64,000 nucleotides of DNA from Thermochromatium tepidum ATCC 43061 (GTDB taxonomy: Bacteria; Pseudomonadota; Gammaproteobacteria; Chromatiales; Chromatiaceae): NCBI RefSeq assembly GCF_009664085.1, contig NZ_CP039268.1:1039501-1103500 (forward strand). Direction: 5' to 3'. Every line of letters starts with the position of its first letter. Within the stretch, counting starts at the first letter, position 1. Positions 20,231-64,000 of this stretch are shown one piece after another. The translations under genes and the position numbers were made by a program. Below the pieces are notes generated by a model, which worked only from the letters and a program-made list of their open reading frames with translations, ran no database searches and was not told where the DNA came from.

Positions 20231-21085
20231 TCAGCCAGCACCGCCCCGCGAGATCCGTGCGATGACCCAATCCAGTCCGGCGGTGGGGAGCAGACGCTTG
20301 AGGGTGCCGAGCAGATGGGTAGGGAAGGTGACATAATACCGCGCCCGCGGGCGCGGGCTTTCTAGGGCGTGAATCAGCTTGGCGCAGACCACCTCCGGCC
20401 CCAGGGTGAAGGGCTGGACCGGTCCTTCCTGGGTCAAGCGTGCCTCGGCCCGACGATAGGCGTCGCGGTGGACGCTCGACTCCCGGTCGATGTTGGCCAA
20501 AAAGGCGCGATGGGCATTGTCGCGGAAACGGCTGAGGATCGGCCCGGGCTCGATCAGCGAGACCCAGATCCCAGAACCGCGCAATTCCAGCCGCAGGGTG
20601 TCGGTCAGTCCCTCGAGCGCATATTTGCTCGCGACATAGGCCCCACGATAAGGCAGGGGGATGAGGCCGAGAATGGAGCTGTTCTGCACGATTCGCCCCC
20701 GCCCCTGACGGCGCATGAGCGGGATGACGCGGCAGGTCAGGTCGTGCCAGCCGAGCAGGTTGGTCTCGAGCTGGGCGCGCAACACCTCGCGGCTTAGATC
20801 CTCGACTGCGCCTGGCTGACCATAGGCCCCATTGTTGAAGAGCGCGTCGAGCCGTCCGCCGGTCAGCTCCAGGGTGCGTTCCAGCGCCGCGCCGATGCTC
20901 GCCGGGTCGTCTAGATCCAGTTGCACGGTACTCAGTCCTTCTGCCTCGAGTCGGGCGACGTCCTCGGGCCGACGCGCCGAGGCGATCACCTGCCAGCCGC
21001 GCCTGACCAGTGCATGGGCGCAGTAGTGGCCGATCCCGCTGGAGCAGCCGGTGATGAGGATGCTGTGTGCCTGGGTCGATGTCAT
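20231..21085 (-). CDS. Short-chain dehydrogenase/reductase (SDR)
   Basis: 284-residue classical SDR oxidoreductase with a Rossmann fold. The cofactor motif is T12-G13-x3-G-I-G ('TGCSSGIG'), the structural motif is 'NNGAYG' (~84-89), Ser lies near 136-137, and the catalytic pair is Y150-x3-K154 ('YVASK'). 'SARR' after the second strand suggests NADP(H) preference. The C-terminal region is extended beyond the minimal ~250 residues and has an amphipathic stretch ('THLLGTLKRLLP') that may contact membrane or substrate. The substrate is unknown. It is convergent with greA and has transposon-relic DNA upstream. Confidence 0.88.
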   Translation of the reverse strand: MTSTQAHSILITGCSSGIGHYCAHALVRRGWQVIASARRPEDVARLEAEGLSTVQLDLDDPASIGAALERTLELTGGRLDALFNNGAYGQPGAVEDLSREVLRAQLETNLLGWHDLTCRVIPLMRRQGRGRIVQNSSILGLIPLPYRGAYVASKYALEGLTDTLRLELRGSGIWVSLIEPGPILSRFRDNAHRAFLANIDRESSVHRDAYRRAEARLTQEGPVQPFTLGPEVVCAKLIHALESPRPRARYYVTFPTHLLGTLKRLLPTAGLDWVIARISRGGAG

Positions 21086-21311
21086 CGTGAGTTTGAGCGT
21101 GTTGGTGTTGGTGGCGGACGGGCATTAACGCCAATCCAGCGCCTGACCGCAACCCAAGATTTGATGTTCCGGTGTGGGCCCCCATTGGATTCAGCCTTGA
21201 TATAAGGCGCCCGTTTGAAGGGCGAACCCAAAAGGCGAACGGGATGATTGTTACAGGCTGTGTGCAGGGTACAATAACACCCTATGGTTCAACGCGCTTA
21301 CCGCTATCGTT

Positions 21312-21431
21312 CACTGGACCTGCACCGCCTGCGGTACGCGCCATGACCGCGATCTCAATGCCGCGCGCAACATCCTGGCGGCGGGCCAGGCCATCCGTCA
21401 GGGCGCGGATGCCCTGCGGGTGCATGAGTGA
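21312..21431 (+). pseudogene. tnpB: tnpB 3' fragment (zinc finger and RuvC-III end)
   Basis: The translation contains 'HWTCTACGTRHDRDLNAARN', the second half of the TnpB zinc ribbon (C-x2-C) followed by the RuvC-III 'DRDxNAARNIL' motif, then a natural stop at 21429-21431. The first half of the protein is absent apart from eight or nine codons at 21284. The fragment cannot encode a nuclease. Its preservation probably reflects overlap with the right-end RNA and transposon end rather than selection on protein. Confidence 0.8.
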
Positions 21432-21618
21432 GTTGGGAATACCGGAGGATGTCCGGGAATTGAGGCCTGTGGATCGGGCGCTGGCGGCGGAACGGCGGCG
21501 ATTGAGCCGGTCTACGAGCCATCCCGCACTGAAGCAGGAAAGGCGGTCCGCGAGGACCGTCCGGCCAGGGAGCCGTACCCTGGGAATCCCCGTCCTTTAG
21601 GGCGGGGAGGATGTCAAC
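21432..21618 (+). ncRNA. Candidate right-end (omegaRNA/reRNA-like) segment of the mini-element
   Basis: In TnpB elements, the RNA that guides the nuclease is made from the element's 3' end and runs past the transposon border, so that flanking DNA becomes the guide. Here ~187 bases after the tnpB stop hold at least two stable hairpins and end exactly at TCAAC. The guide would begin at 21619, in the fmdB leader. Transcription is not shown by sequence alone; this call rests on analogy with ISDra2. Confidence 0.45.
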
Positions 21619-21651
21619 GACGAATGATCCTGTCTGTCATGGGAGAGAATC

Positions 21652-21987
21652 ATGCCGATCTATGAATATCGTTGTGAACACTGCGATCATGAGCTGGAGC
21701 AGATGCAGAAGATCAGCGACCCGCCGCTGACCGACTGTCCGGCGTGCGGCCGTCCCACCCTCAAAAAACGGATCTCGGCGGCTGGTTTCCGCTTGAAGGG
21801 CAGCGGCTGGTACGAGACCGATTTCAAGAAATCCGGCGACAAAAAGAAAAATCTGCACGATGGCGGCGGTGAGAAGAAGGACTCGGCGGCCAAGTCGGAC
21901 AGCGCTGGCTCCAGCGCCACGGCCAAGAGCGATGCGCCCACCGGCACCTCGACGTCCAAGCCGGCCGCCAAGGACGCGGTCTTATAA
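21652..21987 (+). CDS. FmdB-family zinc-ribbon protein
   Basis: 111 residues. The first ~42 form the FmdB/CxxC_CXXC_SSSS putative regulatory zinc ribbon (PF09723): 'MPIYEYRCEHC' with C8-x2-C11 and C29-x2-C32, then 'KKRISAAGFRLKGSGWYETD'. The tail is Lys/Ser/Ala-rich and disordered. The biochemical function is unknown; homologues are often encoded just upstream of aspS, as here. Its ribosome-binding site (GGGAGAG, 21641-21647) lies 30-odd bases beyond the right end of the mini-element. Insertion of that element has therefore displaced its original promoter region. Confidence 0.9.
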   Translation: MPIYEYRCEHCDHELEQMQKISDPPLTDCPACGRPTLKKRISAAGFRLKGSGWYETDFKKSGDKKKNLHDGGGEKKDSAAKSDSAGSSATAKSDAPTGTSTSKPAAKDAVL

Positions 21988-22012
21988 GGGGCTCGACCAG
22001 TTTCGTTAATAG

Positions 22013-22040
22013 TTGAACTTTTTTGTGCGAATGTTATAAT
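22013..22040 (+). promoter_or_regulatory. Predicted strong sigma70 promoter at the left end of the IS607-like relic
   Basis: TTGAAC (22013-22018), a 16-base T-rich spacer, and a perfect TATAAT (22035-22040). It precedes the relic coding sequence by a few bases and fires toward aspS. It is likely the original transposase promoter and could now contribute read-through transcription into aspS, 525 bases downstream. Confidence 0.55.
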
Positions 22041-22046
22041 ATCTGC

Positions 22047-22356
22047 ATGTCTCGCAAGATGGTCATGCCTCCAAGAGGCCGCCGAGTTCTTAGGGGTGTG
22101 TCCTCAGACGCTGTCGGTGCGTGAGTGGACGTGTCCGGATTGCGGAAGTATCCACGACCGCGATGTGAACGCGGCGATCAATCTGAAAAAGGTGGCCGAG
22201 AGTTCGGCTGGCGGCTGCCAGCCCTTTCAGCGACAAGCTGATTGCTCGGTGACAGCCTGTGGAGAGGTGGGCTCTGGTCTTGGGCACGCTCAAGACGAAA
22301 CCGGCCTCTGCGAAGCAGGAAGTCAGCTTCATTCCTGTGTGAGCAGGAATGAGTAA
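22047..22356 (+). pseudogene. IS607-family relic: TnpA helix-turn-helix start fused to TnpB tail
   Basis: Translation gives '[14 protein letters not shown]', the MerR-like start of IS607 serine-transposase TnpA, running directly in frame into '[19 protein letters not shown]'. The latter is the zinc ribbon and RuvC-III end of TnpB, followed by the characteristic tail '[10 protein letters not shown]' and a stop at 22356. Almost all of tnpA and tnpB has been deleted between them. The presumed ATG at 22047 is out of frame with the TnpA segment by one base near 22065, so the open part begins at GTG 22096 or not at all. This is a dead element, distinct in family from the one upstream of fmdB. Confidence 0.75.
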
Positions 22357-22565
22357 GTCTGATGGAACGGCTATGTATCACCGCGCGGCTCGACGCCCAG
22401 GGGCTTGGGTGTCTTAATCGGCGTGGCCGCGAACAGATCCGGTTGGTTCGATGACTTCCCTTGCGCCAAGCCGTTGCGGCCAGTAATCTCTCACGCCTTT
22501 TCATGATGGCTCCGGCCCTGTTCCGCCGGGTCCGTCCACCTTGATTTAGACGGGGCGATAGAGCG
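22357..22565. other. aspS upstream region
   Basis: About 209 bases between the IS607-like relic and aspS. No gene is evident. The right end of the relic probably lies in the first 20-40 bases. GGGGCGATAGAG just ahead of 22566 supplies a modest ribosome-binding site for aspS. No clear sigma70 pair was recognised here. Confidence 0.4.
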
Positions 22566-61568: not shown

Positions 61569-62045
61569 TTAGGCATCGACTGTCTGCGGAAAACCAGGGC
61601 ACAGCACCGATTGCGCGAGCTTGCCGTCAGGCCGGTAGAACAGCATGGCGCCGCTGTCCTCGCAGAGCCAAACCTCTTGCGCGCCCTGTTCGAAATAAAG
61701 CAGTCGTTTATCCACGAGTTCCGCCAGGAGATTGTTCGGCGAGGCGACCTCCACCACGATCTCCGGCGCGGCGGGATAGGGCGTGATCGTTCCATGTCGC
61801 TGCAAAAAGGCCGTCGAACACCACACCACATCCGCAACCTTGACGTTTTTCGACGTTTGAATGCTGCATTCGACAAAAGCCTTTCCCGACGGCATCTTTT
61901 CCTTCAATAAAAAAGCAATCGCGGTTTGCAACATGCCATGCAGGTTACTGGCTGGAGTCATTTCGATTTTGCCCCATTCATTCAATTCGATCTTGAACGG
62001 CAGGTCCGCCAGGAGTGGATCGTCAATCACTGAAGACCAATTCAC
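61569..62045 (-). CDS. Uma2-family (DUF820) predicted endonuclease inside the csm operon
   Basis: 158 residues of the Uma2/DUF820 family (PF05685), a PD-(D/E)xK-fold group abundant in cyanobacteria and some proteobacteria. Motifs are 'LPFKIELNEWGKIEMTPASN', 'VADVVWCS' and 'PEIVVEVASPNN', with the E-V acidic strand and 'KRLLYFEQGAQEVWL' where the catalytic Asp, Glu and Lys/Gln reside. I place the start at GTG 62045 because GGAGGTGA lies 7 bases upstream and family members often begin 'MNW'. The 5' part is more AT-rich than the csm genes, suggesting insertion between csm2 and csm3. A function in immunity is unproven. Confidence 0.82.
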   Translation of the reverse strand: MNWSSVIDDPLLADLPFKIELNEWGKIEMTPASNLHGMLQTAIAFLLKEKMPSGKAFVECSIQTSKNVKVADVVWCSTAFLQRHGTITPYPAAPEIVVEVASPNNLLAELVDKRLLYFEQGAQEVWLCEDSGAMLFYRPDGKLAQSVLCPGFPQTVDA

Positions 62046-62102
62046 TTTGTTCACCTCCACGACCAGATCTCGGATCGAATGGATAGTTAGGGACCCGCGC
62101 CC

Positions 62103-62585
62103 CTAGTTCTCGCGCGGGCGCTCGGCCTTGTAGAAGCCCAGGAAGGCCTCCAGGAACAGCTTCACCTGGCCCAGTGTCTTGGCATCCTCGGCCTGACGCA
62201 GACAGTGATTGAGCAGGGCCACGAAGTTGGCATCGACCAGATCGCGCCCCTTGGCATAGGCGGCCTTGGCGTTGAGCATCAGGATGAAGGGCCGGTACTC
62301 CGCAAAGCGCTCGGGGGCCTGCTCCACCTTGGCCACCCACATCAACAGCTCATCGTAGAACCGGCGCAGTTGGCTCGGCTTGTTGCAGCGCTGGTTGCTC
62401 TCGCTGATGGTCTTGGCACAGCGCTGGGCTACCTCGTTGAACAACTGGGCCTCCAGGTTGGCGCCAAACCGGACCCGGCTCAGATCGATGCCCGGCACAG
62501 GGGGTTCGTCGCGCCGTTGGAAGCGGTTGTCGCCGCCCCGCTGGGGGCCGCGTGGGTTGGAGTAGTTGGAACGTCCTTCGGCCAT
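62103..62585 (-). CDS. csm2: Type III-A CRISPR small subunit Csm2
   Basis: 160 residues, Cas11-type small helical subunit lining the target-RNA channel. The first ~45 residues are disordered and Gly/Arg/Asn-rich. The helical core has 'SNQRCNKPSQLRRFYDELL', 'ERFAEYRPFILMLNAKAAYA' and 'FLEAFLGFYKAERP', which fit the Csm2 family. It follows cas10 by 13 bases. The Arg/Asn-rich N-terminal extension is longer than in short Csm2 proteins. Confidence 0.9.
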   Translation of the reverse strand: MAEGRSNYSNPRGPQRGGDNRFQRRDEPPVPGIDLSRVRFGANLEAQLFNEVAQRCAKTISESNQRCNKPSQLRRFYDELLMWVAKVEQAPERFAEYRPFILMLNAKAAYAKGRDLVDANFVALLNHCLRQAEDAKTLGQVKLFLEAFLGFYKAERPREN

Positions 62586-62598
62586 GGGATGAATCCTC

Positions 62599-64000
62599 TC
62601 AGTCGCGGGTCTGATAGAGATGGGTAAAGAGCGCCAGGCGATAGGCACCGCCGAAACGCTCGATGCCCTGCTGGGCGATGACCTGAGCCAGACGCTGCAT
62701 CAGGCGCCGACGTTCCGGTTCCAGATCGCGACCACGCAGGCGTTGCTCCAGCATCCGATAGGTGCGATAGGCAAACTGGCTGTGCCAGATGGCATCCTCC
62801 GGGCGTGCGGTCTTGGGATTCTGGAACCGCTCCGCCTTGTCGATGAGTTCCAGCAGGCCATAGAGATATCCGGTGCTCAGACCGATCTCGGTCACCAGCC
62901 CCTCCAGTTCGGTGCGCGCCTGGTCCAGTTCATCGAAGGTCGTCCAGGGTACGGTCTGGCCAAAGCCGGTCACGCTGTCTTTCGCGGGACGGTGCGTCTT
63001 GGCCGCCTCCAGGGCCTGTTCGCCAAGTTCCGCCAGATGGCGCACGGGGAGCCCCGGCTTGGTGGTCGAGAGACCGGCCGAGAAATGGATGCCGGGGTTC
63101 TCGGCGACATAGCACCGAAACGCGGCACGCAGTTCACGCGCCAGATCCATCTGCGTCTTCCAGGGGCCGATCAGGAAGAAGTCATCCCCGCCGGCAAACA
63201 CGGTATAGGCATTCTTGTAGCGGGTGCGGCACAGCCACGGCAGATAAAGGGCGAAGAAGGCGTTCATCTGGCGCGAGAGCGCGGCCATCTTGGCGAAGGT
63301 CGGGGCCTTGAGTCCGCGCTGGAAAATGGCACCCAGGTTGTCCACATCGCCCTTGAGCGTGGTCAGGGCGCGAATGCCGACCCAGCGCCCGCGCCCATCG
63401 AGGCGCTGATCCTCACAGGCCAGATGGTTGAAGGTCTTGGGTTCGCCGGGACCGGCGTCAAACGGCTCCTCGGGATCGGCGCGACCGTATTTGTCCTCGA
63501 ACCAGGGATGACCGACCTCATCGCCCAGAAAGCGCGGGATATAGGCGTTGATCGCGCGGCGCGCGTAGCCGTTCCACAGCGGGCAGGTGCCGTCTTCATC
63601 CGGCAGACTGAAATCCCAGACCCGTAACAGGTTGTCGCACCAGACCTCGGGACCAAAACGCCCGCTCGCCTCCTCGTCGCCGGTGAAGCCGATGCGATAA
63701 CCGAACAGGTCGATGGCGAGCGTGTCGCGGACGATCGGGGAGCGACTCACCAACAGCCGTTCGTGGCGGGTCAGCCAGTTGCCCAGGTCGATCTGGTCCT
63801 TGGCCAGACGCCCGAGCTGGATGGTGCGACCGGCCTCCGTGAGGTGCGTGACCGCCGGCGACCGTCCGTCGATCTGACAGACGCCACGGGTGTTGTCGAA
63901 GCGGTCGAGGAAACCCGTAAAGGCCGCCGTCGGGGCCGACTCGCCACAGAGCCCGAAGCGTTGGGCCTTGGCCTGTTCGAGCTGGGCGAACAGCCGTTTC
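62599..64000 (-). CDS. cas10: Cas10/Csm1, C-terminal part (5' end outside window)
   Basis: 467 residues are visible and the frame is open to the right edge. Cas10 is the large subunit of type III complexes and makes cyclic oligoadenylates on target recognition. The Palm-2 cyclase motif 'VFAGGDDFFLIG' is intact, preceded by 'LKGDVDNLGAIFQRGL' and followed by the 'IHFSAGLSTTKPGLPVRHLA' strand and the C-terminal D4 helical bundle. The HD DNase domain, if present, lies outside the window. Csm2, Csm3, Csm4 and Csm5 downstream make this subtype III-A. The GTG at 63753 is internal. Confidence 0.95.
   Translation of the reverse strand, partial: KRLFAQLEQAKAQRFGLCGESAPTAAFTGFLDRFDNTRGVCQIDGRSPAVTHLTEAGRTIQLGRLAKDQIDLGNWLTRHERLLVSRSPIVRDTLAIDLFGYRIGFTGDEEASGRFGPEVWCDNLLRVWDFSLPDEDGTCPLWNGYARRAINAYIPRFLGDEVGHPWFEDKYGRADPEEPFDAGPGEPKTFNHLACEDQRLDGRGRWVGIRALTTLKGDVDNLGAIFQRGLKAPTFAKMAALSRQMNAFFALYLPWLCRTRYKNAYTVFAGGDDFFLIGPWKTQMDLARELRAAFRCYVAENPGIHFSAGLSTTKPGLPVRHLAELGEQALEAAKTHRPAKDSVTGFGQTVPWTTFDELDQARTELEGLVTEIGLSTGYLYGLLELIDKAERFQNPKTARPEDAIWHSQFAYRTYRMLEQRLRGRDLEPERRRLMQRLAQVIAQQGIERFGGAYRLALFTHLYQTRD

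Follow-up and report, generated by a model that had tools for sequence, protein, structure and literature searches.

Between a short-chain dehydrogenase (SDR) gene and an fmdB-like gene, the window (the whole stretch of 64,000 nucleotides of Thermochromatium tepidum DNA that was analyzed) carries a short element with remnants of tnpB, here called elem1. The locus raises the question of whether elem1 is a mini-element with two working ends, movable by TnpA in trans, as an earlier note on this DNA had suggested, or what is left of an element that no longer moves. We compared it with the rest of the source genome (a single contig of 2,958,290 bp, from an organism that the taxonomy used assigns to the genus of Allochromatium tepidum) and with relatives in other genomes. 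Elem1 is likely an immobile relic, present in one copy, of a tnpB-only element of the ISDra2-like kind, since it shows no left hairpin and neither further copies nor a close nuclease were found.

The element upstream of fmdB and its full-length relative

The genes and coding remnants at this locus are as follows (positions are those of the window).

20231-21085, divergent: short-chain dehydrogenase (SDR) gene, with elem1 downstream of it
21199..21617, + strand: elem1, a tnpB element with a left truncation and an internal deletion, running from GATATAAGGCGC to TCAA
21248..21275, + strand: sigma-70-like promoter, TTGTTA-16-TACAAT, 9/12 consensus match
21284..21310, + strand: tnpB codons 1 to 9 (MVQRAYRYR), start ATG at 21284-21286
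21312..21431, + strand: last 39 tnpB codons and stop (21429-21431), in a different frame; Zn-ribbon end with RHDRDLN
21652..21987, + strand: fmdB-like Zn-ribbon gene (PF09723), between elem1 and a second element, elem2

The bounds of elem1 were set by BLAST against a full-length element of A. tepidum from 21227 on, by a 12-mer on the left and by 12 copies of the right end. That full-length element, the best relative found, is a 1,532-bp tnpB-only element of Allochromatium tepidum NZ, located at positions 61682-63213 of pAt1 and in two chromosomal copies, the three copies being 99.0 to 99.9% identical to the reference copy. It encodes a complete 411-aa TnpB (WP_213382327.1) and is without tnpA, the IS1341-type arrangement, as for the parent of elem1. 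It resembles elem1 in its RNA scaffold, right-end hairpin and TCAA end, but differs in having a complete tnpB, a complete left end with an 8-bp hairpin and TTTAT before it, and three near-identical copies. In the BLAST alignment, the right 306 bp of elem1 (query 163-468) are 91% identical to the C-terminal and right end of the A. tepidum element, and query 78-162 matches its left end and N terminus at 76% identity over 87 bp; the step between these two blocks is the internal deletion of elem1. In particular, the comparison places the deletion junction exactly at 21311/21312, so that the remnants previously described as about 9 N-terminal and about 40 C-terminal codons joined out of frame are indeed present, as 9 and 39 codons. 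In the C-terminal remnant, 37/39 residues are identical to the A. tepidum TnpB despite 11 base differences, of which 7 lie in codons whose residue is kept and 4 in the two changed codons. Thus, tnpB would have stayed intact for much of the divergence between the two elements, its loss coming later, and it was probably under selection during much of that time.

The TnpB of the A. tepidum element contains the domains PF07282, PF12323 and PF01385, and the TnpB of ISDra2 (8bf8/8exa) matches it over its whole length (E = 7.8e-52); its top match is an AI-designed nuclease (9yyg). On these two grounds, the domains and the whole-length match, the name ISDra2-like, already used in the earlier note, is appropriate for the TnpB class of the full-length relative. 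The family of elem1 and the A. tepidum element shares with ISDra2 of Deinococcus radiodurans (IS200/IS605) the TnpB class and a 3' RNA scaffold with a guide taken from the flank, as described in PMC8612924, but it differs from ISDra2 in its hairpins and in the lack of tnpA, and TTGAT is not established for elem1. A wider contig search for TnpB relatives gave two loci, one in Thiocapsa imhoffii (70%, frame broken) and one in a MAG (35%). We could also observe that, in A. tepidum pAt1, the full tnpB-only element at L058 lies directly upstream of a gene annotated as csm6.

In all seven congeners searched (7/7), the SDR and fmdB genes are near each other with no elem1 match between them. The intergenic region is clearly alignable in four of these (G073, G140, G124 and G146), where it measures 78, 78, 78 and 89 nt, against 67 nt for the joined flanks of the window once elem1 is removed. 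The joined flanks align with the four congener regions, which are related to one another, better than 97.75% of 2,000 shuffles (p = 0.02), in favor of the relic interpretation. Insertion at TTTGAT (21160-21165), a motif also found in the four congeners, is less likely, as it needs a further host deletion of about 44 nt.

According to the relic interpretation, an ancestral copy would have inserted upstream of fmdB, one internal deletion would have removed about 1.1 kb of tnpB, and the outer 35 bp or so of the left end would have been lost together with the terminal hairpin. What remained would be the region of the tnpB promoter, a complete omegaRNA scaffold and a right end with TCAA, and if elem1 gives rise to an RNA, this would be an orphan guide directed at the former donor site. 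The anatomy of elem1, its relative, the missing left hairpin, the retained RNA pairs and the lack of a close full-length TnpB among those found are observations; we infer how the deletions followed one another, where exactly the left boundary lies and that elem1 is now inactive beyond its occupying the fmdB leader.

The guide RNA segment and its possible partners

Downstream of the tnpB remnant, two further features bear on guide function.

21442..21617, + strand: omegaRNA/reRNA scaffold, 176 nt, four helices counted
21618..21633, + strand: would-be guide, 16 nt, in the fmdB leader

The preserved right-end RNA-like segment that had been proposed is real, as seen from Rfam matches below threshold, from its fold (z = -2.8) and from covariation across the family. 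The match to HgcC (RF00062) scores 32.3 bits (E = 3.5e-5) and does not reach the gathering score of 50, and that to sot0042 scores 16.4 bits (gathering score, 88); sotRNAs (RF02656) are described as omegaRNAs of haloarchaea in PMC12558985. Seven RNA segments (from the window, A. tepidum, two loci of G140, T. imhoffii, G148 and G146) align at 87% mean column identity. The covariation test covered 26 of the 53 pairs of the RNAalifold consensus, in four helices picked from the tested alignment itself, the weaker 5' half of the consensus being left out. Standard pairs filled 96.7% of the cells, 6 pairs showed two-sided change, and the covariation score lay above all 500 shuffles (0/500) and all slid versions; the count of further pair types, reached by 23/500 shuffles, was weaker. 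Thus, a conserved scaffold that ends at the right end and shows covariation, as in TnpB omegaRNAs, is present. Since the tested alignment also served to choose the helices, and since five or more of its seven rows come from relics or mini-elements, the covariation supports the RNA fold of the family and not the present function of the elem1 copy.

The window row keeps 26/26 counted pairs, and the promoter-like site at 21248-21275, one of three such sites in 21000-22450 (0.4 in shuffles), is probably what is left of the tnpB promoter. Neither would have to persist in a relic that died long ago, so their retention counts against the relic interpretation and in favor of an alternative in which elem1 is a guide-only element, its tnpB promoter driving an omegaRNA used by a heterologous resident TnpB (for instance of the L016 type or of the IS607-type copies) and protecting or marking the donor site. 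We regard this alternative as unlikely. It can draw on the covarying scaffold with all counted pairs kept, on the promoter-like site, on the genome's long open frames for TnpBs of other types and on a like arrangement in the congener G140; against it stand the distance of the nearest full-length resident TnpB, whose right-end RNA is also different, and the guide itself. The would-be guide does fall in the fmdB leader, as proposed before, and its length and origin in the flank follow the description of TnpB guides and of the ISDra2 3' RNA scaffold in PMC8612924. It matches only its own flank: no second genomic site with at most one mismatch was found, and one site with two mismatches is preceded by ACCAGT and not by a TTGAT-like motif.

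The own genome has 23 places with a TnpB Zn-ribbon, 10 of them with open frames of 382 to 494 aa: five 382-aa copies with Y1 TnpA, four IS607-type copies and L016. A full cognate tnpB, which the earlier note would have taken as support, was not found, the best full-length match to the A. tepidum TnpB among loci L002-L037 being L016, at 33% identity. Short TnpB remnants reach 47 to 64% over 25 to 66 residues, and none of the 8 out of 33 candidates scored was a relative at E ≤ 1e-40.

In G140, a mini-element of 284 bp (L063:2714-2997) has the same RNA family and a deleted tnpB, as does elem1, but differs from it in a complete left end with hairpin, preceded by TTGAT, and in retaining only the last tnpB codons; a promoter-like stretch was recognized by eye. 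The best TnpB in the G140 draft genome, with 8 of 23 candidates scored, is about 38 to 42% identical to that of A. tepidum. That several independent deletions stop short of the RNA is suggestive of selection for its retention, as far as the sequences go, although the tnpB-deleted derivatives were found using queries that contained the RNA, and hairpin-only scraps without RNA also exist. One scrap of about 45 bp in G140 (L064, near 2878-2930) consists of a left end, a hairpin and TGTCAA that enclose neither an RNA nor a gene.

The ends of the element and its mobility

The features discussed for the two ends are the following.

21197..21201, + strand: TTGAT, the left end of the earlier note; its GAT belongs to the element, and it is probably not a target site
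21587..21608, + strand: right-end hairpin, TCCCCGTCC-TTTA-GGGCGGGGA
21614..21617, + strand: right-end tetranucleotide TCAA, boundary from 12 copies

The right-end copies come from the window, A. tepidum (L059, L060, L061, L062, L147 and L148), G140 (L063 and L064), Thiocapsa imhoffii (L106), G148 (L151) and G146 (L149); the degenerate relatives L065, L150 and L154, without an intact GATGTCAA, were left out. In none of the 12 copies does homology extend beyond GATGTCAA; the base that follows is a G in four of them, a C in three, a T in three and an A in two. Since homology stops at 21617 and the following base varies, the right end of elem1 is TCAA and not the TCAAC that had been claimed, in which the C occurs in only 3/12 copies. 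Moreover, the ISDra2 right-end oligonucleotide given in PMC2806898, GGTTCAAGAGTCC, has TTCAAG and no TCAAC; together with the 12 copies, this rules out TCAAC as an exact ISDra2-type end. A subterminal right-end hairpin with a TCAA-type end, as in IS200/IS605 tnpB-only elements, is present in elem1. We also noticed, at L006 (G000 C1:1187680), a near-perfect palindrome of two right-end hairpins, TTGACATCCTCCC...GGGAGGATGTCAA.

At the left, the A. tepidum element has GATATAAGGCGC beginning 35 nt in from its end, inward of the terminal hairpin that elem1 lacks; in the window, GATATAAGGCGC lies right at the boundary that had been supposed, TTGAT/ATAAGGCGC. It follows that GAT belongs to the interior of the element, which leaves only TT as new sequence, so TTGAT at this place is probably coincidental. 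In the relatives, the left end is laid out as a target-like pentamer or tetramer, 16 to 17 nt, a hairpin CCCCGYCC-TTYA-GGGCGGGG or near, and then GATATAAGGCGC or GGATAGCGC, as seen in A. tepidum, in the G140 mini-element and in congener elements with tnpA (L161, L163 and L164). The target is TTTAT in A. tepidum (three copies with different flanks), TTGAT in the G140 mini-element (a single copy; this use of TTGAT by a real relative counts against the relic interpretation) and, as read, TTAC in the three tnpA-bearing elements; Thiocapsa imhoffii has a degenerate form of the left end. Between L059 and L063, a change in the target goes along with one in the bases preceding the left hairpin (TAAA beside TTTA, TCAA beside TTGA), which resembles a base-paired target code, in two cases only; TTAC/AAAG in L161 breaks plain complementarity.

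The left hairpin is found in the minimum-energy DNA fold of L059, L063 and L016, whereas the hairpin next to the target site that is typical of IS200/IS605 elements is absent from the fold of window positions 21160-21240. Against shuffles, only L059 is far more stable (z = -4.35, versus -1.30 for L016, -0.89 for L063 and -0.44 for the window); that the left end of L063 is no more stable than shuffles again counts against the relic interpretation. The 33 nt at 21166-21198, taken alone, match neither the congener intergenic regions (p = 0.46), as likewise in nonsignificant first tests, nor known left ends (p = 0.68), and this last value speaks against their being a decayed outer left end; the failure to match either counts against the relic interpretation. 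We conclude that the outer left end of elem1 appears to be lost and infer the exact left boundary. Contrary to the view that both ends are kept, elem1 lacks its outer left end along with the hairpin there. For that reason TTGAT, which is right as the ISDra2 target (PMC2806898), is unlikely to be the boundary of elem1.

These results bear on the idea that elem1 is mobile but nonautonomous, with TTGAT as its true left end and TnpA acting on it in trans, which we consider improbable. TTGAT at 21197-21201, its presence before the complete left end of the G140 mini-element, and the intact right-end hairpin and TCAA are in its favor; the interior position of GAT in A. tepidum and the missing left hairpin are against it, as is the finding that, besides the own genome, a related left end was met only in G073 (A. 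tepidum) among 210 genomes of the order, with at most four candidates scored per genome. Furthermore, elem1 is a single copy. Its right-end 29-mer occurs once in the genome even with 3 mismatches allowed, and related ends elsewhere in the genome are limited to the last 35 bp or so, besides a C-terminal coding piece; L003, L004, L005 and L036 share those 35 bp but carry an L016-like RNA.

The genome has seven Y1 TnpA places, five of them intact; A. tepidum gave six Y1 TnpA matches. The five intact TnpA-TnpB elements of the own genome end in GGTTGTTTAC, unlike elem1, which excludes them as its movers, and no elem1 match was found by BLAST within the 1.5-kb surroundings of the Y1 genes L030-L035. 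L035 is a 246-aa Y1 frame with no elem1-like end by BLAST, and L036 is a 61-aa Y1 TnpA remnant beside an L016-type right end. Given the unique copy, the best TnpB at 33% and the unlike ends of the five elements, mobilization in trans is unlikely. Nonautonomous IS200/IS605 derivatives of the MITE-like kind include PATEs and REPINs. Elem1 resembles these in being a short deletion derivative, but it is a single copy without the left hairpin needed for movement, and no matching transposase was found for it in the genome; several same-deletion copies at different sites, another MITE-like trait, are seen for elem2.

Exaptation of elem1 as the fmdB leader or promoter through its promoter and hairpins is also improbable, since, even if elem1 ends 34 bp upstream of fmdB on the same strand and has a promoter-like site, that site matches only 9/12 and congeners have fmdB without elem1.

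The second mini-element and its family

Immediately downstream of fmdB, the window carries the second element.

21988..22370, + strand: elem2, an IS607-type mini-element, GG to GG, unrelated to elem1, its first base directly following the fmdB stop codon
22109..22356, + strand: C-terminal remnant of an IS607-type tnpB frame
22256..22321, + strand: guide RNA core, RAGATH-18-like, 24.5 bits, below the gathering score of 44.9

Four copies, including elem2 itself, share the same junction, elem2 being 96 to 97% identical to L023, L025 and L026; a fifth copy of the family, L155, has an independent, larger deletion (about 281 bp), with pieces 94 to 96% identical. The parents are four elements of about 1.4 kb (L009, L010, L011 and L015), 94 to 97% identical in the right piece and 90 to 98% in the left piece, with open TnpB frames of 420 to 494 aa; their tnpA, as read in L009, is only a short MerR-like N-terminal piece. 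A RAGATH-18-like RNA occurs in all nine copies of the family, weakly (23.9 to 24.9 bits, E = 0.03 to 0.055; gathering score, 44.9). RAGATH-18 is described as the guide RNA of IS607 TnpBs, with 64% of the RNAs (10,258/16,029) adjoining an IS607 TnpB (PMC11061315). Elem2 is like the IS607-type elements with RAGATH-18 described there, which are unrelated to elem1 and have a different TnpB and different ends. It is the elem2 family, and not elem1, that fits the earlier note's proposal of mobilization and guidance in trans for a mini-element, and this multicopy family looks much more alive than elem1.

As a tentative and rather doubtful proposal, TnpB elements of the purple sulfur bacteria compared here may repeatedly shed tnpB and keep the guide RNA, the guide-only mini-elements parasitizing intact copies through the TnpB of the parents in trans. 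If so, the parents' TnpB, using the flank-derived guide of the mini-element, would cut empty donor sites, and the mini-elements would be retained; the elem2 family, with four same-junction copies, one independent deletion and four tnpB parents, would be a concrete case, and elem1 would stand for an orphaned end stage, its TnpB gone from the genome. Many guide RNAs that do not adjoin a TnpB gene are already known (PMC11061315); the literature matches listed included none that dealt with guide-only TnpB mini-elements from these bacteria. Since parents that bear tnpB occur together with guide-only derivatives, all of one IS607-type family, in a small, one-contig genome, the use of guides in trans would be directly testable here. 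The same genome also contains, at C1:131.9 kb (L159), a full IS607-type serine recombinase with a like N terminus, the start region of which is 76% identical to elem2 over 68 bp.
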